A stretch of DNA of 32,084 nt from an uncultured Lachnospiraceae bacterium (GTDB taxonomy: Bacteria; Bacillota; Clostridia; Lachnospirales; Lachnospiraceae): positions 1-32,084 of the forward strand of contig CANSTU010000039.1 in assembly GCA_947650005.1 (NCBI GenBank), given 5' to 3'. Below the pieces are notes generated by a model. The model ran no database searches and was not told the origin of the DNA. It was given only the letters and a program-made list of their open reading frames with translations. Positions 5,165 to 26,649 of this stretch are shown here, in pieces. The first letter of the stretch is position 1, and each line of letters begins with the position of its first letter. The position numbers and the translations under genes were made by a program.

Positions 5165-5245
5165 GATTGAAATTTCGTTTCAATCTTCTCACTTGTATGC
5201 GTGTTATGCACGCAAATGGGTTTCACTTGATTAGCAACAGTATTG
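5165..5245 (+). repeat. A/B hairpin module upstream of the Nudix gene
   Basis: Module A: GATTGAAA (5165-5172) pairs with TTTCAATC (5178-5185). Module B: TGCGTG (5198-5203) pairs with CACGCA (5209-5214). An ATGGG tail follows (5216-5220) and then a shortened stretch resembling module C, with CAGTATTGCAGGGGTA (5228-5243). Unlike most copies it ends about 60 bases before the gene, so it does not supply the ribosome binding site. Confidence 0.7.
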
Positions 5246-13098: not shown

Positions 13099-13104
13099 TT
13101 ATTA

Positions 13105-13249
13105 ATGCAGGCCCTATCCGGTAGCCGGGCATTGGTACATGCTTGCATGCGTCAATGCCCGGATATCGGACGGGCAAGCCGGCAGACGCCAAAGGGCGTC
13201 CGCTCTTTGGCGTCTGCCGACGGCGATCGCTGGAGTAACCGGCTTTCAT
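13105..13249 (+). repeat. Structured repeat element, copy 1 (pyrH leader)
   Basis: A 145-bp element alignable with 20856-21016. It starts ATGCAGGCCCT and ends GGCTTTCAT. It holds a 10-bp hairpin (CCGGGCATTG 13125-13134 with CAATGCCCGG 13153-13162), the shared motif CAAGCCGG, and a 14-bp perfect hairpin (13181-13194 with 13205-13218). Copy 2 has hairpins in corresponding places but with different paired bases. No T run follows either stem. Confidence 0.65.
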
Positions 13250-13261
13250 GGATGGAGCGAG

Positions 13262-13333
13262 ATCCCGTGCCCTGCACGCAGAAGGGATTCCTCTGATTTG
13301 AGTGCCCGCTAAAGCGGGCAGATGGGAGCAGAA
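13262..13333 (+). repeat. A/B-type hairpin module supplying the pyrH ribosome binding site
   Basis: An A-position hairpin of unusual sequence (ATCCC 13262-13266 area with GGGAT 13284-13288, inner GTGC/GCAC), the linker CCTCTGATTTGAGT, then module B GCCCGC-TAAA-GCGGGC (13304-13319) and the tail AGATGGGAGCA. GGGAG at 13324-13328 is the Shine-Dalgarno of pyrH, five bases before its ATG. Confidence 0.75.
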
Positions 13334-14029
13334 ATGCGCAGGATTTTATTGAAACTAAGCGGAGAAGCGCTGGCCGGAGAGAAAAAGCAGGGATTTGACG
13401 AAGAGACCGTACGCCGTGTGGCGCTTCAGATGAAACAGCTGGTATCGGACGGCATCCAAGTAGGCGTCGTAATCGGAGGCGGCAACTTCTGGCGTGGAAG
13501 AACCAGTGAGAATATGGATCGCACCAAAGCGGATCAGATTGGAATGTTGGCCACGGTAATGAACTGTATCTATGTATCCGAGATCTGCCGCAGCATAGGA
13601 TTGGGAACGGCAGTATTCACGCCGTTTCTATGCGGCTCATTTACCGAGCTGTTTTCTAAGGACCGGGCTAACGAATGCTTTGAAAAGGGAACGGTCGTCT
13701 TCTTTGCAGGCGGGACAGGCCACCCCTATTTTTCCACGGATACCGGCGTGGTGTTGCGGGCGGTGGAAGTGGAGGCGGAAGTGATCCTTTTGGCTAAGGC
13801 GGTGGACGGCGTATACGACGATGATCCAAGAACCAATCCGAACGCAAGAAAATATGAGGAAGTCACCATAGACGAGGTGATCGCCAAAAATCTGCAAGTG
13901 GTGGATATGACGGCCTCTATTCTGGCCAGAGACAACAAAATGCCTATGTGGGTATTCGGCCTGAATGAGGAAAACAGCATCGTTAATACGGTAAAAGGGA
14001 AATTTAACGGTACGAAAGTGACCGTATGA
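13334..14029 (+). CDS. pyrH: Uridylate (UMP) kinase
   Basis: Phosphorylates UMP to UDP with ATP in pyrimidine nucleotide synthesis; a hexameric cytosolic enzyme of the amino acid kinase fold. 231 residues, standard length. Motifs: KLSGEAL (7-13, phosphate binding), VVIGGGNFWRGR (UMP/ATP site), GGTGHPYFSTDT and AKAVDGVYDDDP. An in-frame ATG at 13322 lies inside the repeat tail; the ATG at 13334 has GGGAG five bases upstream and matches the family N-terminus (RRILLKLSGEA). frr follows after 96 bases, as in most bacteria, although rpsB-tsf are not upstream here. Confidence 0.97.
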   Translation: MRRILLKLSGEALAGEKKQGFDEETVRRVALQMKQLVSDGIQVGVVIGGGNFWRGRTSENMDRTKADQIGMLATVMNCIYVSEICRSIGLGTAVFTPFLCGSFTELFSKDRANECFEKGTVVFFAGGTGHPYFSTDTGVVLRAVEVEAEVILLAKAVDGVYDDDPRTNPNARKYEEVTIDEVIAKNLQVVDMTASILARDNKMPMWVFGLNEENSIVNTVKGKFNGTKVTV

Positions 14030-14050
14030 ACAAAGGAAAGCGGGTTTGTG

Positions 14051-14110
14051 TCTGCGCTGCCGCCGCAAACCTTTAAGCCACGGCGGCTTCCTACAACCCG
14101 GCAGCGCAGA
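14051..14110 (+). other. Long stem-loop between pyrH and frr
   Basis: TCTGCGCTGCCG (14051-14062) is the exact inverse of 14099-14110, and inside it CCGCCG/CGGCGG (14060-14065 with 14081-14086) can form a nested stem. No T run follows and frr starts 16 bases later. It may be a processing or attenuation structure, or another inserted palindrome. Confidence 0.65.
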
Positions 14111-14125
14111 AATGAGGAAATCATC

Positions 14126-14677
14126 ATGAATGAAAAGCTGGAGCAGTTTGAAACGAAGATGAAGAAAACCTGTGAACACCTGGTGGCGGATTTCGTCACC
14201 ATTCGGGCAGGACGGGCCAATCCCCATGTGTTGGATCGGATCAAGGTGAATTATTACGGGACGCCCACCCCGATTCAACAGGTGGGAAATGTGACAGTGC
14301 CTGAACCCAGGATGCTCCAGATCGCGCCCTGGGAAAAATCCCTGATTAAAGAGATCGAGAAGGCGATTATGGCGTCCGAGCTGGGGATTACGCCCTCCAA
14401 CGACGGAAATGTGATTCGTTTGGTGTTTCCTGAAGTGACGGAGGAACGCAGGAAATCCCTGGTCAAGGAGGTCAAGAAAAAAGGGGAAGAGGCGAAGGTG
14501 GCCGTCCGCAATATCCGCAGGGACGGAAACGATTACTTAAAGAAATTGGGCAAGACGGATGCGTCAGAGGACGAGGTGAAAGAGCTGGAAGAGCAGCTTC
14601 AGAAACTTACCGATAAGTATGTGAAGGAAGTGGACAAGCTGGTGGACGATAAATCGAAGGAAATCCTTACGGTATAA
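14126..14677 (+). CDS. frr: Ribosome recycling factor
   Basis: Splits post-termination ribosomes together with EF-G. 183 residues, the normal size (about 185). Recognised by TIRAGRANPHVLDRI, YYGTPTPIQQ and the C-terminal helix RRDGNDYLKKL with VKEVDKLVDDKSKEIL. The open frame begins earlier inside the preceding stem-loop, but the ATG at 14126 has GAGGAAA upstream and gives the family N-terminus. It follows pyrH and is ended by a terminator hairpin. Confidence 0.97.
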   Translation: MNEKLEQFETKMKKTCEHLVADFVTIRAGRANPHVLDRIKVNYYGTPTPIQQVGNVTVPEPRMLQIAPWEKSLIKEIEKAIMASELGITPSNDGNVIRLVFPEVTEERRKSLVKEVKKKGEEAKVAVRNIRRDGNDYLKKLGKTDASEDEVKELEEQLQKLTDKYVKEVDKLVDDKSKEILTV

Positions 14678-14702
14678 CAGATAGGGATGCAGGAACATAA
14701 GA

Positions 14703-14732
14703 GGGCAGGCGGTGGGGTGGCCTGTCCTTTTG
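14703..14732 (+). terminator. Terminator after frr
   Basis: GGGCAGGC (14703-14710) pairs with GCCTGTCC (14720-14727) with one G-U pair, followed by TTTTGTT. It separates pyrH-frr from uppS, so uppS needs its own promoter or readthrough. Confidence 0.75.
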
Positions 14733-14795
14733 TTGTCGTTTGCGCACTACAGTCCTTCTAAGTGGAAGCCGCCTGTGGCGACAGAATGAGAGGAA

Positions 14796-15076
14796 GGCTG
14801 GAACGTGGTAGGTTCAATCTTCCTGATTTGTATGCGTACCAAGGCGTGCAGATGGGATCAGGTTTGGAACTTTGTTTGAAACTCTCTATATAGTGGCAGT
14901 ATTGTAAATGCTGCCTGCGATATGCAGGGTTGTAAGTTTGAAACTACGTTTCAAACTCTTTATTGGTGGCAGTATCGCAGTCATAGCCTGCGATATGCAG
15001 GGGTATAAGATTGAAATTTAAAATTTTCAATCTCCCTGATTTGTATGCCCGCTAAAGCGGGCAGATGGGTGTAAAT
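14796..15076 (+). repeat. Composite A/B/C hairpin repeat array in front of uppS
   Basis: The 399 bases between frr and uppS hold no gene but are nearly filled by repeats. Order: a degenerate A; B (TGCGTACC/GGCGTGCA, 14831-14848); A (14862-14882); C (hairpin 14900-14906 with 14916-14922, two G-U pairs); A (GTTTGAAAC-TAC-GTTTCAAAC, 14936-14955 area); C (TATCGCAG 14973-14980 with CTGCGATA 14988-14995); A (15009-15032); B (GCCCGC-TAAA-GCGGGC, 15047-15062). The tail GATGGGTG gives a weak Shine-Dalgarno. A units are spaced 73-74 bases. TTGGAA (14864) and TATATA (14887) are 17 bases apart across an A-C junction and could be the uppS promoter. Confidence 0.75.
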
Positions 15077-15781
15077 ATGGAAATACCAAAACATGTTGCA
15101 ATCATTTTGGATGGGAACGGACGCTGGGCCAGGGCCAAGGGGATGCCAAGGAACTATGGACATGTCCAGGGGGCAAAAACCGTGGAGAAGATCTGTGAGG
15201 AAGCCCATCGAATGGGGATTCAGTACCTGACGGTATACGCATTTTCGACGGAAAACTGGAGCCGGCCACAGGAAGAAGTGGATGCCCTGATGGGACTTCT
15301 ACGCAATTATATGAAAACCTGTCTGAAAACGGCGGCCAAAAATAACATGTGCGTCCGGGTGATTGGGGATAAAACCGGGTTGGATGCGGATATCAGGAAT
15401 CGCATTGATCAGCTGGAGAAATCCACTAGGGAAAATACCGGGCTGCATTTTCAGATCGCGTTGAACTACGGCGGAAGGGATGAAATCGTACGTGCAGTAA
15501 GAAAGCTGGCATACCAGGTGGAGGAAGGGACGCTTTCTCCCTCGCAGATTACGGAAGAGGCCGTTGCCATGGCGCTGGATACTGCAGGAATACCGGAACC
15601 GGATCTGTTGATCCGCACCTGCAATGAGCAGCGGATTTCCAATTTCCTGCTCTGGCAGCTGGCTTATACGGAGTTCTATTTTACGCAGGTGGCATGGCCG
15701 GATTTCTCAAAAGAAGAATTGGAAAAAGCCGTTGAGGCATATAATAACAGGGAGCGAAAATACGGCGGCATCAAGGGATGA
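15077..15781 (+). CDS. uppS: Isoprenyl transferase (undecaprenyl diphosphate synthase)
   Basis: Condenses isopentenyl diphosphate onto farnesyl diphosphate to make the C55 lipid carrier of cell-wall synthesis; membrane-associated cis-prenyltransferase. 234 residues. Motifs: HVAIILDGNGRWA (catalytic Asp in DGNGRW), GHVQGAKTV, FSTENWSRP and SNFLLWQLAYTEF. The usually strict RTSGEQR or RTGGEQR reads RTCNEQR here (C182, N183), which is odd. The ATG at 15077 gives the family N-terminus; an in-frame ATG at 15065 lies in the repeat tail. cdsA follows after 13 bases. Confidence 0.95.
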   Translation: MEIPKHVAIILDGNGRWARAKGMPRNYGHVQGAKTVEKICEEAHRMGIQYLTVYAFSTENWSRPQEEVDALMGLLRNYMKTCLKTAAKNNMCVRVIGDKTGLDADIRNRIDQLEKSTRENTGLHFQIALNYGGRDEIVRAVRKLAYQVEEGTLSPSQITEEAVAMALDTAGIPEPDLLIRTCNEQRISNFLLWQLAYTEFYFTQVAWPDFSKEELEKAVEAYNNRERKYGGIKG

Positions 15782-15794
15782 GAGGGTCTGGCTT

Positions 15795-16679
15795 ATGTTT
15801 ATGACGAGATTGATGAGCAGTGTGGTGTTGGTGGCTGCGGCACTGTTTCTTTTGTTGACGGGAGGCAGTGTGCTGGCCGTGGGGCTTCTGTTTCTGTCCT
15901 TGATCGCATTTCGTGAACTGGCCTTGGCCTGCGGCGTGGCGCATTTCGGCGGGGATGGGAGAAAGGCGGAAGAAGGAAAGCCTGAAACGAATGACGCGGG
16001 AAAAAAGAAAACGCACAATGGGCTAACAATAGTGGGCTATGCAGGAATCCTGCTGTATTATGCGGCGGTGTGCCTGGCCGATGCGCCCGTTTACTGGATG
16101 GGCGCGCTGGCTGCGGTATTTCTGGGAATGATGGCAGTGTATGTGTTGTCCTTTCCTTCCCATCGGGCGGAAGCGGTGATGGCGGCTTTCTGTAGTTTCT
16201 TTTATGCGACGGTGCTGTTTTCCTTCATTTATTTAACCAGAAGCCTCCCTGGAGGAATCTATCTGGTCTGGCTCATTTTCATCAGTTCCTGGATTTGCGA
16301 TACCTGTGCCTATCTAACAGGAATGGCTTTTGGGAGGCATAAGCTGGCGCCCATTCTCAGCCCCAAGAAATCCGTCGAGGGCGCCGTGGGGGGCGTGGCG
16401 GGGGCGGCTCTGGTAGGGGCTCTTTTTGGCTGGATTTTTCTGGAGAAGGTTTATCCGGATCCCAACATCATATGGGTCACGGCCCTGATCTGCGGTGCGG
16501 GTGCAGTGATCTCCCAGATCGGGGATCTGGCGGCCTCCGGAATCAAGAGGAATCATGGGATCAAGGATTACGGAAAACTGATTCCGGGCCATGGAGGAAT
16601 TATGGACCGGTTTGACAGCGTGCTGTTCACGGCTCCTATCATTTATTATCTGGCCACCTTGTTGATTCGGTTTGAATAG
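15795..16679 (+). CDS. cdsA: Phosphatidate cytidylyltransferase
   Basis: Makes CDP-diacylglycerol from CTP and phosphatidate, the branch point of phospholipid synthesis, in the cytoplasmic membrane. 294 residues with about seven to eight hydrophobic segments. The C-terminal signature begins at S248: SGIKRNHGIKDYGKLIPGHG, then GIMDRFDS, matching the family pattern with its metal-binding K-D, H-G-G and D-R-x-D. The ATG at 15795 is taken because GAGAGGG lies eight bases upstream; the frame is open further back within uppS. A hydrophilic insert of Lys/Glu-rich sequence follows the first hydrophobic pair. Confidence 0.95.
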   Translation: MFMTRLMSSVVLVAAALFLLLTGGSVLAVGLLFLSLIAFRELALACGVAHFGGDGRKAEEGKPETNDAGKKKTHNGLTIVGYAGILLYYAAVCLADAPVYWMGALAAVFLGMMAVYVLSFPSHRAEAVMAAFCSFFYATVLFSFIYLTRSLPGGIYLVWLIFISSWICDTCAYLTGMAFGRHKLAPILSPKKSVEGAVGGVAGAALVGALFGWIFLEKVYPDPNIIWVTALICGAGAVISQIGDLAASGIKRNHGIKDYGKLIPGHGGIMDRFDSVLFTAPIIYYLATLLIRFE

Positions 16680-16690
16680 ATAGAAAGGTA

Positions 16691-17046
16691 CAAGGCCCGC
16701 TAAAGCGGGCATATGGGAACAAGATTGAAAATAGATATGTTCAATCTCCTGAAGCAAGCTGCGTGCTTTGCACGCATACGGGAACAAGATTGAAATATAG
16801 TATTTTCAATCTCTTGAAGCAAGCTGCGTGCTTTGCACGCATATGGGAACAAGATTGAAATATAGTATTTTCAATCTCTTGAAGCAAGCTGCGTGCTTTG
16901 CACGCATATGGGAACAAGATTGAAATATAGTATTTTCAATTTCCTGATTCGAGTGCGCGCTTTGTACGCATAGGAACAAGATTGGAAGAAGGTCTTTCAA
17001 TCACCCTGATTTAGGCGCGGCAGGGACGCGCAGACGGGAGCCAAAC
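16691..17046 (+). repeat. Tandem 65-bp A/B hairpin array in front of dxr
   Basis: Fills nearly all of the 367 bases between cdsA and dxr. B stems start at about 16695, 16760, 16825, 16890, 16954 and 17015; A stems at 16723, 16788, 16853, 16918 and 16980. The spacing is exactly 65 for the first four and 62 for the last. Internal B units read TGCGTGC-TTT-GCACGCA and the first reads GCCCGC-TAAA-GCGGGC. Two 65-bp units are identical to the eye (16788-16852 and 16853-16917). The last unit ends in ACGGGAG (GGGAG at 17036-17040), the Shine-Dalgarno of dxr. Confidence 0.9.
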
Positions 17047-18201
17047 ATGAAGAAAATAGCCATCCTGGGTTCCACAGGTTCCATTGGAACCCAGACGTTG
17101 GAGATCGTAAGGGACAATCCGGATCTTAAGGTGGAAGGCCTGGCCGCGGGTTCTAATACAGCGCTGATGGAGAAGCAGATCAGAGAATTCCTTCCGAAAA
17201 CAGCGGTAATGTGGGAGGAATCTGCAGCTTGTGACTTGAGGAGCCGGATAAAGGATCTGCCTGTGCGGGTGCTTAGCGGTATGGGCGGGCTGCTGGAGCT
17301 GGCTGCGGCGGATGGGTATGAGGTGTTGGTAACAGCGATAGTGGGGATGATCGGGATCCGCCCAACCATCGCGGCAATTGAAAGCGGTAAGACGATTGCT
17401 CTGGCGAATAAAGAGACATTGGTGACGGCAGGACATCTGATCATGCCGCTGGCGGCCAGGCATGGGGTTTCCATTCTGCCGGTGGACAGCGAACACAGCG
17501 CCATTTTTCAGTCCTTGAACGGGGAAAATCGTTCCCAGGTATCCAGGATTTGGCTTACGGCCTCCGGCGGGCCGTTCCGGGGAAAGACCAGGCAGGAGTT
17601 GGCTTCCATGACTGCGGCGGATGCCCTGAAGCATCCCAATTGGTCCATGGGCCGTAAGATTACGGTGGATTCCGCCACTCTGGTAAATAAGGCTCTGGAG
17701 GTAATGGAGGCAAGATGGCTTTTTGATGTGGGTCTGGACCAGATCGAGGTGTTGGTTCACCCTCAGAGCATCATCCATTCTATGGTGGAATATGTGGACG
17801 GGGCGGTGATCGCCCAGTTGGGAGCGCCGGATATGAAGCTTCCCATCCAGTATGCCCTGTTTTATCCTGACAGAAGGCCCATGGACGGGAAACGGGTGGA
17901 CTTTTTTGAATTGGGCAGCCTGACCTTTGAACGCCCGGACAGGGAAACCTTCCGAGGGCTGGAGCTGGGAATGCGGGCGGCATTGGAGGGAGGAAGCATG
18001 CCCACGGTGTTTAACGCGGCGAATGAGCGCTCGGTGGCCCTGTTCTTAGAGGGGAAAATCGGATTTTTGCAGATTGCGGAATTGATCGAGGCCTGTATGG
18101 GGCATCATAAAAATAGGGAAAATCCGGATGTGGATCAGATCCTGCAGGCTGAGGCGGAGACGTATGCTTTCGTGGAACGCTCGCTTGCCCAAAAGGGCTG
18201 A
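17047..18201 (+). CDS. dxr: 1-deoxy-D-xylulose 5-phosphate reductoisomerase
   Basis: Converts DXP to 2-C-methyl-D-erythritol 4-phosphate with NADPH, the committed step of the MEP isoprenoid pathway that feeds UppS. 384 residues, typical length. NADPH motif GSTGSIG (8-14); metal ligands D147 and E149 in VDSEHSA; substrate-binding TASGGPF and the flexible-loop region HPNWSMG; then DSATLVNKALEVMEA. The ATG at 17047 has GGGAG six bases upstream, supplied by the repeat array. rseP follows after 37 bases. Confidence 0.97.
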   Translation: MKKIAILGSTGSIGTQTLEIVRDNPDLKVEGLAAGSNTALMEKQIREFLPKTAVMWEESAACDLRSRIKDLPVRVLSGMGGLLELAAADGYEVLVTAIVGMIGIRPTIAAIESGKTIALANKETLVTAGHLIMPLAARHGVSILPVDSEHSAIFQSLNGENRSQVSRIWLTASGGPFRGKTRQELASMTAADALKHPNWSMGRKITVDSATLVNKALEVMEARWLFDVGLDQIEVLVHPQSIIHSMVEYVDGAVIAQLGAPDMKLPIQYALFYPDRRPMDGKRVDFFELGSLTFERPDRETFRGLELGMRAALEGGSMPTVFNAANERSVALFLEGKIGFLQIAELIEACMGHHKNRENPDVDQILQAEAETYAFVERSLAQKG

Positions 18202-18238
18202 GTTGTAATCTGTAAAGGAAAAGGAGAACGAAGAGCAA

Positions 18239-19288
18239 TTGACTATTGTGTTATTTATCCTGATATTCGGAGTGATCGTCGTTGGGCATGAGCTGGGACA
18301 TTTCTTGCTGGCCAAGGCGAATGGTATTACGGTGGTGGAGTTTTCCGTGGGCATGGGCCCCAAGCTGCTTCATTTCAAGCGCGGCGGGACGGAATATTCC
18401 CTGCGGCTGCTTCCCATTGGCGGGGCCTGTATGTTTGAAGGGGAAGACGGCTTGGAGAATGGAAACGGCGCGCCCTCCGAGGGGGCTTTTCCCAATGCGA
18501 GCGTGTGGGCCAGGATTTCCACGGTATTTGCAGGGCCCTTTTTCAACTTTCTCCTGGCCTTTGTACTGGCCATGATCGTGGTTGGATATACAGGAAGCGA
18601 CAGGCCGGTGCTCCTGGATGTGATAGACGGCTATCCTGCCCAGGAGGCGGGTATGCAGGGCGGAGATCTGATCACGCGGATGAACGGAGAGCGGATCTAC
18701 CTGTCCCGTGAAATCTGGCTGAATACCTTTGCCAACCCCGGCGAGACCATGGAAGTGGAGTACGTTCGGGAAGGGGAAACGTATACGGCCACGCTGGTTC
18801 CCAAGTATGATGAGGAGGAGGGACGTTTCCTTCTGGGTTTTCAGGGATATGGGGAGAGCGTGGACTGCAGGAATGCGGGAATTTTTAAATACAGCTATTA
18901 TGAGGTGCGTTATTGGCTCAAGGCCACGGTCAAGAGCCTGGGAATGCTGTTTTCCGGGAAGGCAGGGAAGGATGATATCACCGGGCCCATCGGCATGGTT
19001 CAGGTGATCGATGAGGTGAAGGAGCAGGCGCAGCCCTATGGAATCTGGATTGTGCTTCTCAATATGATTAACATTGCGCTTCTGCTCAGCGTCAACCTGG
19101 GCGTGATGAATCTTCTGCCGCTTCCAGCGTTGGACGGAGGACGCCTGGTCTTTTTGATTCTGGAGGCCGTACGGGGTAAACCAATCCCACCGGAAAAGGA
19201 AGGAATGGTGCATCTGGCGGGTTTTGTGGTCCTGATGATTGCCATGGTGCTTGTGATGTTTAATGATATTTCCCGGCTGCTTCACTAA
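18239..19288 (+). CDS. rseP: Site-2 protease, RseP/RasP family membrane metalloprotease
   Basis: Intramembrane zinc protease that cleaves membrane-bound anti-sigma factors and remnant signal peptides. 349 residues. HELGH at residues 17-21 (H17, E18, H21) lies in the first membrane segment, a PDZ domain occupies about residues 120-200, and LPLPALDGG supplies the third ligand D299. GPFFNFLLAF marks the central membrane segment. The start is TTG at 18239, since no ATG or GTG precedes the conserved N-terminus; AAGGAG lies 12 bases upstream, a slightly long spacing. Position after dxr is conserved among Firmicutes. Confidence 0.95.
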   Translation: MTIVLFILIFGVIVVGHELGHFLLAKANGITVVEFSVGMGPKLLHFKRGGTEYSLRLLPIGGACMFEGEDGLENGNGAPSEGAFPNASVWARISTVFAGPFFNFLLAFVLAMIVVGYTGSDRPVLLDVIDGYPAQEAGMQGGDLITRMNGERIYLSREIWLNTFANPGETMEVEYVREGETYTATLVPKYDEEEGRFLLGFQGYGESVDCRNAGIFKYSYYEVRYWLKATVKSLGMLFSGKAGKDDITGPIGMVQVIDEVKEQAQPYGIWIVLLNMINIALLLSVNLGVMNLLPLPALDGGRLVFLILEAVRGKPIPPEKEGMVHLAGFVVLMIAMVLVMFNDISRLLH

Positions 19289-19313
19289 AGGCCGGCTGTC
19301 TGTTTTGGAACTG

Positions 19314-19375
19314 CTCCCGTGCGCTGGGAGGGCTTGGAAAACGATGCCGCCGGTGGCGGCAGGATTGGAGGAAGG
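19314..19375 (+). other. Two hairpins and Shine-Dalgarno before the DUF3048 gene
   Basis: CTCCC (19314-19318) pairs with GGGAG (19326-19330), and GCCGCC-GGT-GGCGGC (19346-19360) forms a second stem that is followed by GGAGGAAGG and the ATG. The layout recalls the A/B modules, but the sequences do not match the family. Confidence 0.45.
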
Positions 19376-20443
19376 ATGAAAACACAAAGGAAGCAATTGT
19401 TTACGGCGCTGTTTACCTTGGCGGCTGCCGCATTCACGGCGCTGGCTATGCCGGCGCAGACGATTCGGGCGGAAGAGCTTCCGGCCGGATATGTGAGGAG
19501 CGTCTACACCAATGAGCCCGTCACCGCACAGCAGGCGGGCACGCGTCCTATTGCGATCATGATGCCCACGGACAAGACGGCGCAGCCTTCCTATGGAATC
19601 GGCAACGCGAAGGTGCTCTACGAGGTCATGGAGGAAGGCAACATTTCCCGTCAGCTGGCGGTGATCGACGACTGGCAGGGGCTTTCCCGGATCGGGAATG
19701 TCAGAAGCTGCCGCGCTTACTATATCCCTATTGCCACAGAATGGGATCCAATTCTGGTCCATTTCGGCGGCGTGTGGTATATGGCTGACCGTATCACCAT
19801 GCCGGATATTAACAACCTTTCCGGGACTTCCGAATACGGAACCGGAGGAGATGCGCCTGGCGCAGGGGCTTTCTTCCGCAGCTCTGATAGAAAGGCGCCC
19901 CATAACGCCTACATCAGCGCCAATGGTATTATCAATTCTTGCAATCAGCTGGGATACTCCTTAACGATCCGCCCGGAATTCTACAGCCCGAAGCATTTTA
20001 ATTTTTCACCCGGTGTGAATACCCTGGATCAGTATGGCCCTGCAGCCCAGAGCGCTTCGTCCATCAGCCTGGCCAATATTTTCCCTTATACGAAGACAGG
20101 CTTTACCTATAACCCTGCGGACGGGCTGTATTACAAAACCCTTCACGGAAGCAGACATGTGGACGCCCTGAGCGGACAGCAGCTGGCATTTGCCAATGTG
20201 ATCGTACAGAATTCGCAGTGGATGCCGCTGGATGCCAAGGGATATCTGGCATTTGTCAATTACGATACGACGCAGGACGGATATTATTTTACCAAAGGAA
20301 AATGCATCCATATCACCTGGCAAAAGACAGCGGATTATGGCCCTACACGCTATTTTGACGATGCGGGAAATGAAATCCAGTTAAACACTGGAAAGACGTA
20401 CATAGCAGTGGCCCAGGCGGGCCGGCTGCCGGCTTTTTCATAA
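19376..20443 (+). CDS. Exported DUF3048 family protein (YerB-like)
   Basis: A 355-residue secreted protein of unknown role. Residues 1-32 are a signal peptide with cleavage expected after IRA; there is no lipobox cysteine, unlike Bacillus YerB. The DUF3048 fold shows in RPIAIMMPTDKTAQPSYG, AKVLYEVMEEGNISRQLAV and GNVRSCRAYYIPIA, followed by a C-terminal domain with a YFTKGKCIHITW segment. The ATG at 19376 with GGAGGAAGG upstream is clear, although the frame is open earlier. The gene ends within a small GC hairpin plus five T that may terminate transcription. Confidence 0.88.
   Translation: MKTQRKQLFTALFTLAAAAFTALAMPAQTIRAEELPAGYVRSVYTNEPVTAQQAGTRPIAIMMPTDKTAQPSYGIGNAKVLYEVMEEGNISRQLAVIDDWQGLSRIGNVRSCRAYYIPIATEWDPILVHFGGVWYMADRITMPDINNLSGTSEYGTGGDAPGAGAFFRSSDRKAPHNAYISANGIINSCNQLGYSLTIRPEFYSPKHFNFSPGVNTLDQYGPAAQSASSISLANIFPYTKTGFTYNPADGLYYKTLHGSRHVDALSGQQLAFANVIVQNSQWMPLDAKGYLAFVNYDTTQDGYYFTKGKCIHITWQKTADYGPTRYFDDAGNEIQLNTGKTYIAVAQAGRLPAFS
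20421..20438 (+). terminator. Possible terminator overlapping the end of the DUF3048 gene
   Basis: GCCGG-CTG-CCGGC followed by TTTTT. The stem is only five base pairs, but it is G/C-only and lies 16 bases before the next -35 box. Confidence 0.4.
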
Positions 20444-20453
20444 AGCCTGAAGG

Positions 20454-20482
20454 TTGACAAAGGCGTATGGAGCGCATATCTT
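20454..20482 (+). promoter_or_regulatory. Promoter of the T-box/cysES unit
   Basis: TTGACA (20454-20459), perfect consensus, 17-base spacer and TATCTT (20477-20482). The transcript would start just before the T-box stem I sequence. Confidence 0.6.
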
Positions 20483-20489
20483 ATAGTTA

Positions 20490-20852
20490 TAGAATGAAAA
20501 GGCAGAGAACGGAAGAGAGTAGGAAAGGGAATTCGTGTCAGAGAAGGGGCGCCATTGGCTGAAAGTGTCCTTTGCGAAGCCGTCCGAAGATGCATCCGGG
20601 AGCCGATCCGGTGAAAGGGACAGAATTAGTGAGACCATGCTTTGGGGTAAGAAAGCTTTTCTAAGGCTGTTGTCCAAGGCGCTGACTAGCCGGATACGGG
20701 TTGCGCACGTTACGCGTCACGAGTGCAGGGGCCACGGTGTGCCGCCGGAAGCAGGGGAAGGATCGCCTGTGGAAGGGGCCGGATGACGCCTGAATCAGAG
20801 TGGGACCACGGCTTCGCCGTCTCTGTAATCCGAGAGACGGCGAAGCCCTTTT
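20490..20852 (+). promoter_or_regulatory. T-box leader (tRNA-sensing attenuator), probably Cys
   Basis: An RNA that senses uncharged tRNA and switches between antiterminator and terminator. Stem I carries GGAAGAGAGTAGG (loop E/AG region, 20509-20522 area) and a distal hairpin with loop CATTGGCTGAAA. A TGC at 20591-20593 in GAAGATGCATCC is the likely cysteine specifier. The T-box core reads AGAGTGGGACCACGG (about 20797-20811), with the UGG that pairs with the tRNA CCA end. The terminator is a perfect 15-bp stem (20810-20824 with 20833-20847) followed by CTTTT. It fits cysE-cysS downstream. The short reading frame 20535-20786 lies inside and is not a gene. The fourth T-box base is G where A would pair best with the U73 of tRNA-Cys, so the specifier deserves checking. 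Confidence 0.85.
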
Positions 20853-20855
20853 ACT

Positions 20856-21016
20856 ATGAAAGCCCTGGCCGGCGGCTGAGCAGATGCGCAAGCTTGCTTG
20901 TCTATCTGTTCAGACATCGGCCAGTCAAGCCGGTATAAGCAAGAAGGGAGTTAGCCCGGATTGCGCATACCAGCGCTGGTTGCGAGAGCGCGAAGCGTGA
21001 AGCAACCAGCTTTCAT
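20856..21016 (+). repeat. Structured repeat element, copy 2 (between T-box and cysE)
   Basis: 161 bp with perfect 8-bp terminal inverted repeats, ATGAAAGC (20856-20863) and GCTTTCAT (21009-21016). It contains an outer stem CTGGCCG/CGGCCAG, a hairpin CTGAGCAGAT (20876-20885) with ATCTGTTCAG (20904-20913), the CAAGCCGG motif shared with copy 1, and GCTGGTTGC (20975-20983) with GCAACCAGC (21002-21010). No reading frame. It begins nine bases after the stem of the T-box terminator. Confidence 0.65.
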
Positions 21017-21050
21017 GTATGTCGCGGGCCGGCTGAGCAGGTGGAGGGAA

Positions 21051-21114
21051 GTTTGAAACTTCGTTTCAATCACCCTGGTGTGTATGCGCGCTTAAGCGCG
21101 CAGAGGGGAGCAAA
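21051..21114 (+). repeat. A/B hairpin module supplying the cysE ribosome binding site
   Basis: A: GTTTGAAAC-TTC-GTTTCAATC (21051-21071, one mismatch). B: TGCGCGC-TTAA-GCGCGCA (21085-21102). Tail GAGGGGAGCAAA with GGGGAG as Shine-Dalgarno four bases before the cysE ATG. Confidence 0.8.
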
Positions 21115-21867
21115 ATGGGTATCATCAGCAAAATGAAAGAAGAAATCAGGGTGATCCGGGAGCGGGATCCTGCCATTCATTCGTCATGGGAGGTGTTCCT
21201 TTATCCCAGTTTTAAGGTGATGCTCCACTACCGCCTCGCGCACAGGCTGTATCTGTCGGGCCATTATTTTCTGGCCAGATTGATTTCCCAGCGGGGAGTG
21301 AGAAAAACCGGAATCGAGATCCATCCGGGCGCGCAGATTGGAACCGGATTTTTCATTGACCATGGGAACGGTGTGATTATCGGGGAAACGACGGTCATCG
21401 GCGACAACGTGACCCTCTATCAGGGGGTTACTCTGGGTGGGACCGGAAAAGAGCATGGAAAACGGCATCCCACAGTAGGAGATAATGTGATGATCAGCGC
21501 GGGCGCAAAGGTGCTGGGATCGTTTACCATTGGGGAAAATTCCAAAATCGGGGCTGGGAGCGTGGTATTGAACGAGGTGCCGCCCAATTCCACGGTGGTC
21601 GGCGTACCCGGCCGGGTGGTAAAGCGGAGGGATCAGCCGATACCCCGTCATACCATGGATCAGGTAAATCTGCCAGATCCAGTAAAGGAGGATATCTGCG
21701 CCCTGCAGCGGGCCAACAGCGAATTGATCAACAGAATACTTGACCTGGAGGCGGAAGTGCGTTACCTTAGAAAGCAGGAAGAAGAGCCGTCCGAAGAAGC
21801 AGGCCGGAAGCAAGCGGAGCAAAAGAAGGACGAAGGGAAAGGAAAATTTCAGAATGAAAATCTATAA
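21115..21867 (+). CDS. cysE: Serine O-acetyltransferase
   Basis: Acetylates L-serine with acetyl-CoA, the first step of cysteine synthesis. 250 residues; a left-handed beta-helix of hexapeptide repeats (about 66-170) with the catalytic FIDHGNG (D82, H83), VIIGET, and the acetyl-CoA loop VTLGGTGK. The N-terminal helical domain is shorter than in E. coli, as usual for Firmicutes. After residue 170 comes an extra C-terminal part with a coiled-coil-like stretch ([16 protein letters not shown]) and a Lys/Glu-rich tail. The last 14 bases overlap cysS. A cysteine T-box upstream explains control of the pair. Confidence 0.95.
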
Positions 21868-23263
21868 TACGCTGAGCAAAACAAAAGAAGAGTTCAAGCC
21901 CATTACGCCGGGAGAAGTGCGGATGTACGTGTGCGGGCCTACGGTCTACAATCTGATCCATATCGGGAATGCCCGGCCCATGATCGTATTTGACACGGTG
22001 CGCCGCTATTTTGAATATAAGAACTATAAGGTGAACTATGTGAGCAATTTCACCGATGTGGACGATAAGATTATTAAAAAAGCGGTGGAAGAAGGCGTGG
22101 AGAGCGCAGAGATCTCTGAACGGTATATTGCGGAATGCAAAAAGGATATGGAGGCGCTACACGTCCGCCCTGCCACCACCCATCCCCAGGCGACACAGGA
22201 GATTGGCGGCATGCTGGAAATGATAGAAACCCTGATTCAAAAAGGGCATGCCTATGTGGCACAGGACGGCACGGTATATTTCCGTGTGAGAAGTTTTCGG
22301 GAATATGGAAAGCTCTCCCATAAAAACCTGGATGACCTGGAGGGAGGGAAGCGCTCCCTGTTGGTTTCCGGAGAAGATCAGAAGGAAGATCCTCTCGATT
22401 TTGTGCTTTGGAAACCGAAGAAAGAGGGAGAACCCTATTGGGAATCCTCCTGGTGTGACGGGCGTCCGGGCTGGCATATCGAATGCTCTGTGATGAGCCG
22501 GAAATATCTGGGTGAAGAGATCGACATCCACGCGGGCGGTGAGGATCTGATCTTCCCTCATCATGAGAACGAAATTGCCCAGTCGGAAGCGGCAAACGGA
22601 AAAACATTCGCAAGGTACTGGATGCATAATGCTTTTTTAAATATCAATAATAAGAAGATGAGTAAGTCTGCCGGGAACTTTTTTACCGTGCGGGACATCC
22701 TCGAGAAATATGAACCTCAAGTGGTGCGTTTCTTCATGTTGTCCGCCCATTACAGAAGCCCTCTGAATTTCAGCGCGGAATTGATGGAAGCGGCTGCAAA
22801 TGGCCTGGAGAGGATCGTCACAGCGGTATCCAATCTGAATTTCCTCCTGGAAAAAGCGGAGAATGCGCAGCTTCGTGCAGAAGAGGAGAGGCTTTTGGAG
22901 GAAGCGAAGGAATTCACGATGAAATTCGAGGAAGCCATGGAAGATGATTTCAACACGGCGGATGCGATCGCAGCGATCTTTGAGCTTGTGAAGTTTGCCA
23001 ATACCAATACTGGAGCGGATAGCAGCGCGGCATATCTGTCCGAGCTGATCGACCGGATCAAGGAGCTTTCAGACGTGTGCGGGCTGGCGGTGGAGAAAAA
23101 GGAAGGACTGCTGGACGATGAGATTGAAGCGCTGATAGAGGAAAGGCAGGCTGCGAGGAAAGCCAGGAATTTCGGCCGGGCGGATGAGATTCGGGAGGAA
23201 TTAGCTGCCCGCGGAATCCTTCTGGAAGATACCCGGGAGGGTGTGAAATGGAAGAGAGCCTAG
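21854..23263 (+). CDS. cysS: Cysteinyl-tRNA synthetase
   Basis: Charges tRNA-Cys; class I synthetase, cytosolic monomer. 469 residues. Zinc and active-site features: C27 in VCGPTVY, HIGNA (36-40) as the HIGH motif, WHIECS and [12 protein letters not shown] (zinc ligands Cys, His), and KMSKS (268-272). The C-terminal helical DALR-like part ends in [17 protein letters not shown], typical for CysS. The ATG at 21854 overlaps the cysE end by 14 bases with AAAGGAAA upstream; the longer open frame is spurious. mrnC overlaps its 3' end. Confidence 0.97.
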
Positions 23264-23691
23264 GACTGGAGGAACTGATCAGGAGGAAGTTTGCATTGGG
23301 GGAGACCAATCTAAAGACCTACTCTCCCTTGACCCTTGCCTTTGTGGGAGATTGTATTTATGACCTGATCATCCGCACTGTGCTGGTGGAACGTTATAAT
23401 GCGCCTCCTGAACGGCTCCATAGGGAGAAGAGCGGCCTGGTGAAGGCCCAGACCCAGGCAAGGATGATAATGGATCTACAGGAGGAATTGACGGAGGAGG
23501 AGAAAGCCGTCTATCGGCGGGGAAGAAACGCCCGGCCGCACAGCACGGCGAAGAACGCTTCCGTGGCGGATTATCGAAAAGCCACGGGGCTGGAGGCCCT
23601 CTATGGGTATCTGTATCTATCCGGCCGGATGGATCGTCTGCTGGAATTGGTGAAACTTTCCTGCGAAAATTTGGACGACCCTATAGGATGA
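23248..23691 (+). CDS. mrnC: Mini-ribonuclease III (Mini-III)
   Basis: A 147-residue RNase III-like catalytic domain without a double-stranded RNA-binding domain; it matures 23S rRNA ends in Firmicutes. Key parts are AFVGDCIYDLIIR (D35 catalytic), the RGRNARPHSTAKNAS segment characteristic of Mini-III, and TGLEALYGYLYL (E116 catalytic). It overlaps cysS by 16 bases with GGGAGG upstream of the ATG. Position between cysS and rlmB is the conserved Firmicutes arrangement. Confidence 0.95.
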   Translation: MEESLGLEELIRRKFALGETNLKTYSPLTLAFVGDCIYDLIIRTVLVERYNAPPERLHREKSGLVKAQTQARMIMDLQEELTEEEKAVYRRGRNARPHSTAKNASVADYRKATGLEALYGYLYLSGRMDRLLELVKLSCENLDDPIG

Positions 23692-23729
23692 CAGCCTGGT
23701 CGGCAGCAGCCGGGATACAGCGGGATTTG

Positions 23730-23900
23730 AATGCTTGCTAAAGCACGTAGGAGGGAACAAGTTTGGATGTTAAATTCCAAACGCTCTATTTTGTGACAGT
23801 ATCGTAAGCGCTGCTTAGGATATACAGGGATATAAGATTGAAACTATGTTTCAATCTCTCTGATTTGTATGCGCGTCAAAACGCGCGGATGGGTATGAGA
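23730..23900 (+). repeat. B-A-C-A-B hairpin array in front of rlmB
   Basis: B-like GCTTGC-TAAA-GCACG (23733-23747); A GTTTGGA/TCCAAAC (23761-23782); C (TATCGTAA 23800-23807 with TTAGGATA 23815-23822, one mismatch); A GATTGAAAC-TAT-GTTTCAATC (23836-23856); B GCGCGT-CAAA-ACGCGC (23871-23886); tail GGATGGGT just before the rlmB starts. The A units are 75 bases apart. TTGGAT (23763) and TATTTT (23787) are spaced 18 and may act as a promoter. Confidence 0.75.
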
Positions 23901-24644
23901 ATGGAAAATCAGGAAATGAGAATAGAAGGGCGCAATGCGGTACTGGAAGCAATGCGTTCCGGAAAAGCGGTGGACAGGCTGTATGTTTTGGACGGATGCC
24001 AGGACGGCCCGGTGGGTACAATAAAGAGGGAAGCGAGGAAGCGGGATGTTCCCATTAAATATGTATCAAGGGAGCGTCTAGATCAAATGTCCGAGACGGG
24101 AAAGCACCAAGGAGTGATAGCGTTTGCGGCCGCATATGCATATGCGCAGGTGGAGGATATGTTGTCCTTGGCTGAGAAGAAAGGGGAGCCGCCCTTTTTG
24201 ATCCTCTTGGATAATATAGAAGATCCCCATAATTTGGGCGCTATCATCCGCACGGCCAATCTGGCCGGTGTGCATGGGGTGATCATCCCCAAAGACCGGG
24301 CGGTGGGATTAACGGCAGCAGTGGCCCGTACCTCGGCTGGCGCTTTGAATTATACGCCGGTGGCTCGTGTGACCAACCTTGTGAAAACCATGGATGAATT
24401 GAAGAAAAAGGGAATGTGGTTTGTTTGCGCGGATATGGCTGGGACGCGGATGTATGATCTGGATTTGACCGGCGCCATGGGAATGGTGATCGGCAGCGAA
24501 GGAGAAGGCGTGGGGCGGCTTGTCCGGGAAAATTGTGATTTTGTGGCATCTATTCCCATGAAAGGGGATATCGATTCCCTGAACGCATCCGTCGCGGCCG
24601 GCGTACTGGCATATGAAATCGTAAGACAGAGGCTTGGGAAATGA
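23901..24644 (+). CDS. rlmB: 23S rRNA (guanosine-2'-O-)-methyltransferase RlmB-like (SpoU/TrmH family)
   Basis: Methylates a ribose in 23S rRNA (G2251 in E. coli) using S-adenosylmethionine, through the knotted SPOUT fold. 247 residues: N-terminal RNA-binding domain (EGRNAVLEAMRSG), then motif 1 DNIEDPHNLGAIIRTAN (N111, R117), motif 2 MVIGSEGEGV and motif 3 IPMKGDIDSLNASVAAG. In-frame ATGs at 23889 and 23895 also exist; I chose 23901 because it stands at the same distance from the repeat as in the other loci. The stop overlaps the next ATG (ATGA). Confidence 0.93.
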   Translation: MENQEMRIEGRNAVLEAMRSGKAVDRLYVLDGCQDGPVGTIKREARKRDVPIKYVSRERLDQMSETGKHQGVIAFAAAYAYAQVEDMLSLAEKKGEPPFLILLDNIEDPHNLGAIIRTANLAGVHGVIIPKDRAVGLTAAVARTSAGALNYTPVARVTNLVKTMDELKKKGMWFVCADMAGTRMYDLDLTGAMGMVIGSEGEGVGRLVRENCDFVASIPMKGDIDSLNASVAAGVLAYEIVRQRLGK

Positions 24645-26437
24645 GAAAAAGAGGTTTTTTGGCGGTCATATTCGGCAGCCTTCTTCTGGTTTTTCTGATC
24701 TCATTGGCTTCGATCCATCTTTTTGGGGCGACGAAGCAGGAAGCGGAGGCGGAAAGCACACAGGAGGTTGTCCGGGAAACCGGATCAGATGAAGAAGGGG
24801 GGGAGATAGAGGGGATACAAGTTAAGAGCGCGGAAAGCGACGGCCGGGAAGACGGCAGCGATGCGGCGGAGGAAGTATCCGCGGAAGCCGTGGCGGCGGG
24901 AAACTGGATGACAGAGGGGGAAGTGAGCGAAAATGGGATAACGGGAAAAGGAATATCGGAGGATGTAATATCCGAAAACCGGATTCCGGCTGAAACCCTG
25001 CTGCGAAGGAAGGACAGGACCGTATCAGGAAATGACGGCTCTGGCAGTCCAGTATCCGGAAACAATGTTTCAGGGAATGGGATATCTGAAAATAGCATAT
25101 CAGAAAATGATATATCGGAAAAACGCCTTTTGGGAGCCAGTATTTCTGAAAACGATAGTTTGGAAAACAGGATATCCGAAAAGAATCTCTCCGAAAGCGG
25201 CGTATCTCAAAATACGGTGTCTGAAAACCAGACATCCGGAAATCAGGCCTTAGGAAACGAGATATCCGCAGATACAACATCAGGAAACTCTGAATCGGGA
25301 AAACTGGCGTCAGGAAACGAGATATCTGCAGATACAACATCGGGAAATGCTGGATCGGAAAATCAGGCGTCAGGAAACGCGGTATCCGCAGATACAACGT
25401 CGGGAAACGCGGTATCGGGAAATCTGGCGTCGGGAAGCGTGATATCCGGAAATACAACATCGGAAAGCGCCGTATCGGAAAATCTGGTATCGGGAAACGA
25501 GATGTCTGCAGATACAATATCGGGAAACACGGTGTCGGGAAATCTGTCATGTGAAGATAGCGTATCGGGAAATCTGCTCTCAGGAAACAATGTTTCTGAA
25601 AACACGGTATCCGGCAATGGAGTTTCCGGAAACACAGCGGGACGGGCGTTGTCTGAAAATGCGGTCATGACCCTGGCCCAACGCCAGAAGGCGCGTAGTT
25701 CCCATAAGGAAACCTTGCTTGCAAATACCCAGGATCGGGCGACGATATCCGGAAACTGCATTGATTTTTCCAATATAAAAATTGCCTGCCTGGGGGACAG
25801 CATCACGGAAGCTTCCAATCTGGAAAGGCTGGAAAATTACAAAGAATTATCCTATCCGGCTGCTCTGGAAAAGGCCCTGGGGGCACGGGAAGTATACAAC
25901 CTGGGGATCGGAGGTTCTTCCATCGGCAGATATTGGGCGGACGCCTTCGTAGACAGATATCAGGAGATCCCGCAGGATACGGATCTCATTCTGGTCATGG
26001 GCGGGACGAATGATGGTTTCTGTGCCAGCATGGTGGAATTCGGCACGTCTACAGAACGGAAAAGTCGTACCTTTTGGGGAGATCTGGACGAGCTGATGGA
26101 CGGACTCGCGGCGGATTATCCGCATGCGGAGGTGATCTTTTTAACCCCGCTTCCCAACGGCCTGCACGATTACCTGAAAAAGGACCATCCTTATCTGATT
26201 TCCCAGGAAAAATATGCGCAGGTCATCGGTCAATTGGCGGCAGAACATGGTATGGAAGTAATCGATCTGTATAATTCCAATATTCTGGACGGTCACGACA
26301 AGGACAACGCCCTCCACCTGATGCCGGACAGCGTCCATCCCAATGTGGAGGGATATCGCATTCTGGGTGAGCATGTGGCGGCGGAGATCATCCGCCTGCT
26401 GGAGAAAAGGCACGCTTCAAGGGCGGGTTATGGATAA
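24641..26437 (+). CDS. Membrane-anchored SGNH/GDSL hydrolase with long S-[GE]-N pentapeptide stalk
   Basis: A 598-residue surface protein. Residues 6-29 form an N-terminal membrane segment (signal anchor). An acidic linker follows, then residues about 95-335 are built from some 45-50 five-residue units of the type [VI]-S-[GE]-N-x. The C-terminal domain (about 375-595) is an SGNH hydrolase: ACLGDSIT with S387, GIGGSS (block II), GGTND with N457, and DSVHPN with D563 and H566 as the catalytic pair. Such enzymes deacetylate or deacylate surface glycans, lipids or peptidoglycan. It is translationally coupled to rlmB. The stalk has a 20-residue super-repeat and is likely to vary in length between strains. 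Confidence 0.9.
   Translation: MRKRGFLAVIFGSLLLVFLISLASIHLFGATKQEAEAESTQEVVRETGSDEEGGEIEGIQVKSAESDGREDGSDAAEEVSAEAVAAGNWMTEGEVSENGITGKGISEDVISENRIPAETLLRRKDRTVSGNDGSGSPVSGNNVSGNGISENSISENDISEKRLLGASISENDSLENRISEKNLSESGVSQNTVSENQTSGNQALGNEISADTTSGNSESGKLASGNEISADTTSGNAGSENQASGNAVSADTTSGNAVSGNLASGSVISGNTTSESAVSENLVSGNEMSADTISGNTVSGNLSCEDSVSGNLLSGNNVSENTVSGNGVSGNTAGRALSENAVMTLAQRQKARSSHKETLLANTQDRATISGNCIDFSNIKIACLGDSITEASNLERLENYKELSYPAALEKALGAREVYNLGIGGSSIGRYWADAFVDRYQEIPQDTDLILVMGGTNDGFCASMVEFGTSTERKSRTFWGDLDELMDGLAADYPHAEVIFLTPLPNGLHDYLKKDHPYLISQEKYAQVIGQLAAEHGMEVIDLYNSNILDGHDKDNALHLMPDSVHPNVEGYRILGEHVAAEIIRLLEKRHASRAGYG
25252..25551 (+). repeat. Coding minisatellite, five 60-bp units
   Basis: Five in-frame units of exactly 60 bp start at 25252, 25312, 25372, 25432 and 25492. 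Each encodes a 20-residue block of the pattern SGNxxSADTTSGNxxSxxxx, with the first three most alike. Shorter 15-bp periodicity continues on both sides. Confidence 0.9.
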
Positions 26438-26446
26438 CGGGGAGTG

Positions 26447-26649
26447 AGGATTGAAAATTAAAATTTTCAATCCTCCTGAGTTGAGTGTCCGATTAAGCGG
26501 TCGGATGGGAGCAAGATTGGAAGAAAGACGCTTCCAACCTCCCTGAGTTGAATGCGCGCTAAAGCGGGCAGATGGGAGCAAGGTTGGAAGAAAGACGCTT
26601 CCAACCTCCCTGAGTTGAGTGCGCGCTAAAGCGCGCAGATGGGAGCATG
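26447..26649 (+). repeat. Tandem 67-bp A/B hairpin array in front of sigH
   Basis: Three units. A stems: AGGATTGAAAATT with its perfect inverse (26447-26474, 13 bp), AGATTGGAAG/CTTCCAACCT (from 26514, one mismatch), and the same with AGGTTGGAAG (26581-26607, perfect). B stems: TCCGA/TCGGA, GCGCGC-TAAA-GCGGGC (26553-26568, one mismatch), TGCGCGC-TAAA-GCGCGCA (26620-26637, perfect). The linker CTCCC (26539-26543, 26606-26610) is complementary to GGGAG (26574-26578, 26641-26645), and the last GGGAG is the sigH Shine-Dalgarno. The first A stem may also end transcription from upstream. Confidence 0.88.

Follow-up and report, generated by a model that had tools for sequence, protein, structure and literature searches.

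Why should genes without an obvious common pathway carry the same folded repeat immediately before their start codons? The question is raised by a 32,084-nt stretch of DNA from an uncultured Lachnospiraceae bacterium (henceforth the window), which is the whole of contig C39 (CANSTU010000039.1) of a 3.59 Mb draft genome in 138 contigs (G000). By comparison of UppS, the nearest named relatives of this genome are mostly uncultured Lachnospiraceae and Eisenbergiella. Six window genes, which we take to be pyrH, uppS, dxr, cysE, rlmB and sigH from an earlier note on this DNA and from sequence features, are directly preceded by a unit of about 66 nt (henceforth type I), composed of an A hairpin (GATTGAAA..TTTCAATC), the linker TCCCTGATTTG(T/A)(A/G), a B hairpin and the tail GATGGGAGCAA. 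Type I is one among several interchangeable modules of about 30-105 bp (types I, II, III, IV and D) that end in a Shine-Dalgarno (SD) sequence. We consider it likely, with a probability of roughly 0.7, that these modules are short structured mobile elements, similar to miniature inverted-repeat transposable elements (MITEs), that insert after an SD, ahead of the start codon, and supply a new SD in its place. We infer that the mobile process is transposition.

To detect type I units we built a covariance model (R1) from an alignment of 25 full units. A search of the genome with R1 returned at least 152 matches, with scoring limited to 150 first-look candidates. The 22-base core of type I, allowing up to three mismatches, matches the genome at 165 places, 78 on the forward strand and 87 on the reverse, and the reversed pattern at none, so the repeat is present far beyond chance. 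Moreover, type I units start no more than about 75 nt from the first base of G000 contigs such as C24, C32, C43, C73, C85, C119 and C121; the repeat therefore probably breaks the assembly, and the copy numbers are floors. For a census we sampled the larger contigs at 40 stretches of 20 kb each, chosen independently of matches, and added the window (832,084 bases in all). R1 at E<=0.001 gave a best 119 matches, reduced to 117 units after dropping opposite-strand shadows and grouped into 78 clusters, with genes called by a simple codon-usage script, not a standard gene finder. A gene lies downstream on the same strand in 72 of the 78 clusters, including two clusters located in sense inside a called coding sequence, while only two lie between convergent genes. 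An ATG stands at -2 to +7 nt from the 3' end of the R1 model in 61 clusters; a stricter count, requiring that the called downstream gene have an in-frame start codon at -4 to +8, retains 50, of which 47 use ATG. At random intergenic positions (n=755) an ATG falls within +0 to +10 in 24.9% of cases, and one opening a reading frame (ORF) of at least 50 aa in 7.5%. By gene order, uppS and dxr lie inside a pyrH-frr-uppS-cdsA-dxr cluster, and we infer from this that the placement of type I tracks translation starts and not promoters.

The earlier note had described a single repeat, but what stands at these starts is a family of module types, and the type II and type D modules in the same leaders had been missed. 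Near the starts of 701 called genes, strand-specific k-mers diagnostic of type I (GCAGATGGGAG), type D (GGCAGAATGAG) and type II (TGCGATATGCA) occur at 36, 15 and 11 genes, respectively, and on the reverse strand at 0, 0 and 1. Type D consists of a GCCGCC hairpin followed by AGAATGNGAGGAAA, and type II of a GTTTGAAAC hairpin followed by GGCAGTAT..GATATGCAGGGGTATAA. We scored what follows each tail in a fixed order: an ATG in +0 to +10, else another module, else GTG or TTG. In the G000 sample these outcomes number 58, 32 and 6 of 106 tails for type I, 47, 6 and 2 of 58 for type D, and 17, 10 and 4 of 41 for type II; the reversed tail patterns match at only one, three and five places, respectively. 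The corresponding figures in G007, the draft genome of a related gut bacterium of the same genus, are 26, 7 and 4 of 46 (type I), 28, 5 and 0 of 36 (type D) and 8, 2 and 1 of 15 (type II).

Exact junctions are seen in two sets of copies, each specific to one species. Type III occurs at 27 places in G007 and at none in the 12 other genus genomes searched; six copies are identical across 85 bp, and the A hairpin is intact in 24 of the copies. In all 24 intact copies an SD-like sequence lies in the 12 nt to the left (compared with 18% of random 12-mers), and in all 24 the left flank ends in AA. At the right end, an ATG follows within 2-4 nt in 20 copies, 17 of which thereby open an ORF of at least 50 aa (or one running off the locus), and the hairpin of another module follows in the other four. 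The right SD belongs to the element, since it does not change along with the left SD; by eye, the left SD is often part of an older D, I, II or III module. Direct duplications at the 24 copies measure 0 nt in nine, 1 nt in nine, 2 nt in five and 3 nt in one, with no consistent length, and a 2-bp AA duplication would be indistinguishable from the element's own ends. At three loci (L230, L237 and L251) a further unit starting GAGTGAAAGATTTTTCAAATCTTTCA follows type III.

Type IV, conversely, occurs at nine places in G000 and at none in the 12 other genus genomes searched. All nine copies lie after the end of another module (type I in eight, two of these with a decayed SD, and type D in one) and before an ATG, which opens at least 143 aa in seven. 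At type I, an SD-like sequence stands to the left of the first unit in 49 of 76 clusters, compared with 22% of 1263 random intergenic places, and the left flank ends in AA in 36 of the 49 with a recognisable A hairpin. Thus, two species of one genus have experienced separate module bursts into the same kind of site.

We propose that a module would insert, one way round, into the SD-to-start spacer, its target having the form SD..AA^NN-ATG. With the right end carrying its own SD..AA, a usable ribosome-binding site (RBS) would be restored and the same target recreated. Restoration of both would let insertions be tolerated and leave most copies at start codons, and later modules would pile up after the most recent SD, ahead of the ATG, yielding tandem arrays and mixed stacks. 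Insertion at the recreated site would likewise leave orthologues in related species with different module types. Any effect on translation strength would be a putative by-product or a later use.

Orthologous leaders differ by whole modules. We measured intergenic gaps from script-found starts in the window, in the named relative L031 and in 79 other relatives. The uppS-cdsA gap has a median of 12 nt in 78 relatives and is 13 nt in the window, but spans 104 nt in L031, where it is filled by type I sequence. The cdsA-dxr gap (median 36 nt in 69 relatives) is 367 nt in the window and 94 nt in L031, and the frr-uppS gap (median 117 nt in 76 relatives) is 387 and 186 nt, respectively. The cysE leader holds type I in the window and type D in L031, the pyrH leader type I in the window and a D-like module in L031, and one gene has II+I in G000 (L116) but D+III in G007 (L178). 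At the gene after rseP, a type I unit sits in L031 between the type D sequence and the ATG. Type D is also found at the same genes in both species, by eye with stems that have changed yet still pair in some pairs. By loose tail patterns, 19.3% of 615 genes in G000 and 14.3% of 609 genes in G007 plus L031 carry a module, figures that are rough and probably high.

How far do the modules reach beyond these genomes? With R1 at E<=1e-4, 13 genus genomes yielded at least 149 matches in G000 and at least 143 in G007 (among the 150 candidates scored in each), one to six in four genomes and none in seven. Across 200 family genomes, the type I tail plus ATG (up to two mismatches) is found 232 times in G000, 118 in G007, 12 in G175, 11 in G043 and 0-6 times elsewhere, and the reversed control matches 0-1 times per strand; high-copy type I was seen in G000 and G007 only. 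L031 also has type I and may or may not be the same genome as G007. The type D tail (up to one mismatch) is spread more broadly among the same 200 genomes, with 111 matches in G000, 119 in G007, 51 in G184, 20 in G172, 17 in G015 and 8 in G034, and 0-3 in the remainder, equal to the reversed-control range. In 20 stretches picked around D matches (16 from G184 and two each from G172 and G015), an ATG follows 20 of 24 D tails. Type D is therefore wider-ranging and probably older than type I. Viral contigs had no exact match to three module patterns, and phages and plasmids no blastn match to the one type I unit queried. Outside both amplified genomes, L052 has at about 213-597 (-) a similar A hairpin with a different body and GGAG before the ATG, an arrangement that suggests additional module types in other lineages.

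Several observations weigh against insertion as the explanation. Seventeen of the 78 type I clusters have no ATG at -2 to +7; by eye, nine of them run into another module, three have an in-frame TTG and five, the copy at 5165 included, have neither. The ORFs that follow two of the nine type IV copies are just 6 and 29 aa long. Matching the G000 sample to G007 plus L031 gave 104 reciprocal best pairs, with a module in both members of 16, in one only of 7 and 6, and in neither of 75; these calls use loose tail patterns, at least three are doubtful and at least one of the 16 shared cases looks false. Such strong sharing fits ancestral copies, stacking on existing modules, tolerant genes or selection, and random insertion alone would not yield it without ancestral copies, target preference or selection. 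The leaders have diverged, and we found no orthologue pair in which one ancestral leader differs by a single clean insert; an alignment that starts at the ATG is, moreover, expected for any two orthologues. Type D, which both species retain at the same genes and which other genera also carry, could be a host RBS motif and not a mobile element. Finally, searches for a mobilising enzyme, limited to the Y1, Y2, IS110 and reverse transcriptase families with other transposase families not searched, were largely empty in the amplified genomes. For the Y1 HUH transposase (PF01797), a cutoff as loose as E<=10 brings up nothing in G000 or G007, though the gene could be missed in these drafts; six of the 13 genus genomes have it. 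Y2 (PF04986) is likewise absent from both and has matches in three of the 13, IS110 (PF01548) has none in either of the two among the 13 genomes searched, and reverse transcriptase (PF00078, RVT_1) has none in G000 and three in G007. Draft assemblies can lose multi-copy insertion sequences (IS). G000 and G007 are both drafts that may have lost such genes, and the lack of matches is weak evidence that the genes are absent.

The alternative that best withstands these data treats the modules as cis-regulatory RNA leaders of the host. On this view, recombination spread a structured translation-control element to many genes and selection retained it for its tuning of translation, for example through SD accessibility or a hairpin-binding protein. 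The hairpins do covary strongly. Among 150 aligned matches (146 distinct rows), both sides of a pair have changed in 227 cells, compared with 80 after shuffling and at most 83 with slid partners, in an alignment fitted to the R1 model, which favours structure. A per-helix test on 114 distinct rows of the best 117 places helix A at z=18 and helix B at z=12 above shuffles, confirming the earlier observation that B stems vary in sequence yet keep pairing, and an internal loop by the B hairpin, UGA / AGAU, is near-invariant at four letters (G 104, A 104, G 103 and A 106 of 114). The exact spacing between module and ATG, the shared presence of modules in orthologues and the retention of type D with still-pairing stems are also as this alternative would have it. 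SD accessibility points the same way, being 0.42 for the 60 scorable clusters of the 78 and 0.52 for 221 control genes (p=0.02), an occlusion only slightly stronger than in the controls. Against it, the six window genes have no obvious common pathway, module type varies at the same gene in several pairs, types III and IV form species-specific sets of near-identical copies, and the SD/anti-SD helix lacks per-pair covariation (z about 0). We regard host leaders as unlikely.

That helix was the core of a switch that we considered and dropped, in which CUCCC after the A hairpin was expected to pair with the tail GGGAG (and in tandem copies also with the GGGAG before A). The CUCC/GGAG third helix pairs in 86% of cells, no better than shuffled (z of -0.6 for all standard pairs and 0.5 for Watson-Crick pairs), which is why the claim was abandoned; a whole-arm shuffle matched the observed 380 in 3 of 1000 trials (mean 372), and a weak signal is left. 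The earlier note had offered two possibilities, a portable translation-control leader or a mobile repeat tamed as a 5' untranslated region. The second is strongly supported, by placement, orientation, near-identical copies with exact junctions and orthologues differing by whole modules, while the first is not supported by the SD/anti-SD helix, which does not covary, and the difference in accessibility is small. Random placement, copies in both orientations or a lack of covariation, which the note had named as signs of an ordinary dispersed palindrome, were none of them found.

IS200/IS605-derived elements have hairpin ends, are strand- and site-specific and make no target duplication. As a special case of mobile insertion, the modules might be a degraded single-strand (HUH) family of this type, with A and B as left- and right-end hairpins; the SD-like sequence would then be both target and right cleavage site, which is why the element would end in an SD. 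The modules share with such elements hairpins near both ends, a single orientation to the target and the lack of a long target duplication, each tested and found, and their right end resembles their left flank (SD..AA). By contrast, no Y1 transposase was found in G000 or G007 at E up to 10, though six other members of the genus have one, and no gene-carrying module copy was seen, no systematic search for one having been made. This origin appears to us less probable still than host leaders. Convergent evolution of hairpins beside SDs, with copies of no common descent, is very improbable: although type D is short and partly variable, more than 100 copies share sequence in their A hairpins and linkers and six type III copies are identical over 85 bp, so that convergence is refuted for types I, III and IV and applicable to D alone.

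Do the modules belong to a known class of repeat? REP/BIME elements with RAYT transposases comprise many short palindromic dispersed elements per genome. The modules are alike in this respect, but G000 and G007 have no Y1 and the location is the SD-ATG spacer. TIR-type MITEs have terminal inverted repeats (TIRs), whereas no inverted repetition relates the two ends of type III (GATTGAAAA.. and ..GGGTATAA), and the Y2 transposase of IS91/ISCR-type elements has no match in G000 and G007. Nor do the type D, I, II and III regions searched match a covariance model of a known Rfam cis-regulatory RNA: region 14680-15100, holding types D, I and II, has no Rfam match at E<=5, and six type III loci have none either. 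Closer in architecture are the pneumococcal BOX elements, whose boxA/boxB/boxC modules have terminal inverted repeats like those of ISSpn2; they are described in PMC3049150 as small modular dispersed repeats with strong secondary structure, clustered and inserted into one another, thought to be parasitic and able to affect co-transcribed genes. The likeness is one of architecture only, as small, modular, structured, clustered and nested repeats. The same paper reports that BOX elements are over-represented between convergent genes (70 upstream of coding sequences and 16 between convergent ones, p=0.0017; PMC3049150), a preference not seen among our clusters, most modules ending in sense at a start codon. 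Similar in location are the TAACTGA direct repeats of Beggiatoaceae, of which, according to PMC4679880, 169 sets are known, the majority within several nt upstream of the start codons of functionally unrelated genes, in organisms where canonical ribosome-binding sites are reported to be rare. Those are heptamer direct repeats, whereas the present modules are hairpins containing an SD, with species-specific sets and defined junctions. The family behaves like a MITE or a BOX-type repeat, but since the inverted ends of TIR-MITEs, the distribution of BOX and a Y1 transposase were not found as tested, we file it under none of these and class it with small dispersed repeats. We recognised no paper describing the element in the open-access literature, from which absence is unprovable.

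Within the window, R1 at E<=0.1 gives 19 matches, 15 on the + strand and four on the - strand; the latter are palindromic shadows of + strand copies, with which they coincide in position. The modules are listed in Table 1. Seven loci with one layout had been proposed; the repeat is indeed present at all seven, but two of them (16684-16722 and 23722-23760) open with a B hairpin only, and the A hairpin at 13261 departs from GATTGAAA. The claim that the tail serves as RBS at five genes holds as to direct adjacency, with the number raised to six by rlmB, whose copy is not the weaker version it was taken for (69.6 bits), and with the copy at 5165 standing away from a start codon.

Table 1. Type I, II and D modules of the window, with the match or repeat family by which each was recognised
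Feature	Position	Strand	Basis
Solitary type I unit, away from a start codon (ATG of downstream gene 54 nt on)	5165..5225	+	R1 52.0 bits
Type I unit with divergent A hairpin; 3' end 2 nt before pyrH ATG (13334)	13261..13331	+	R1 45.1 bits
Type D module, GCCGCC hairpin + AGAATGAGAGGAAG; first in uppS leader stack	14768..14796	+	sequence
Type I unit within uppS leader stack	14797..14861	+	R1 43.1 bits
Type II module in uppS leader: GTTTGAAAC-type hairpin, GGCAGTAT..GATATGCAGGG hairpin, SD	about 14862..14935	+	repeat families D8/D10
Second type II module, uppS leader	14936..15008	+	repeat families; weak R1 match, 24.4 bits, E 0.036
Type I unit; 3' end 2 nt before uppS ATG (15077)	15009..15074	+	R1 86.1 bits
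B-only remnant opening dxr leader	16684..16722	+	repeat family D4
Five tandem type I units; final one 3 nt before dxr ATG (17047)	16723..17043	+	R1 at 16723, 16788, 16853, 16918, 16980
Type D module right before ATG (19376) of gene after rseP	19349..19374	+	repeat families, sequence
Type I unit; 3' end 1 nt before cysE ATG (21115)	21051..21113	+	R1 71.8 bits
B-only copy, rlmB leader	23722..23760	+	repeat family D4
Type II module, rlmB leader (ends by eye)	23761..23835	+	repeat families
Type I unit; 3' end 2 nt before rlmB ATG (23901), then GGGTATGAGAATG	23836..23898	+	R1 69.6 bits
Three tandem type I units; last abutting sigH start (ATG at 26647 and 26650)	26449..26648	+	R1 at 26449, 26515, 26583

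Other features of the window deserve mention. Tails of the form ATGGGAGCAANN-ATG (type I) and ATGAGAGGAAAN-ATG (type D), for example at 13322-13336 and 15065-15079, contain an additional ATG, in frame and 12 nt ahead of the start. The Clostridiales-1 RNA (RF01699), the sole Rfam match at gathering threshold in the whole window, lies at 20857-21015 (+, 101 bits), 35 nt upstream of the cysE type I unit and without overlap; L113 and L172 have text similar to this region, GCGCGAAG..CCGGCTTTCA, ahead of modules or starts. Large palindromes unlike the modules (e.g. GACGCCAAAGG..CTTTGGCGTC) occupy 13100-13230, between the gene ending at 13067 and pyrH. The gene at 24641-26437, whose product we presume from its GDSIT motif to be an SGNH-type hydrolase, contains a long run of 15-nt repeats (24900-25640) encoding SGN.VSEN-like pentapeptides.

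Small dispersed repeats are found in many bacteria and are usually viewed as landing in neutral gaps. The modules may, as we tentatively suggest, represent a new class of mobile element that targets SD..AA^NN-ATG with a machinery belonging to none of the HUH, IS110 and reverse transcriptase families searched, and the RBSs of very roughly one-sixth of the genes of this clade may now consist of hairpin-SD modules that can be exchanged and stacked, and that are replaced from one species to another at genes which themselves persist. If so, selfish DNA would have a new route to harmlessness, by entering the SD-ATG spacer and supplying the SD anew, and transposition could rewrite a considerable fraction of a genome's translation-initiation regions in the time over which two species diverge. 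The finding raises testable issues: which enzyme recognises the start site, whether its substrate is DNA or RNA, and whether a module influences protein output. The modules themselves are natural, portable ribosome-binding-site parts.

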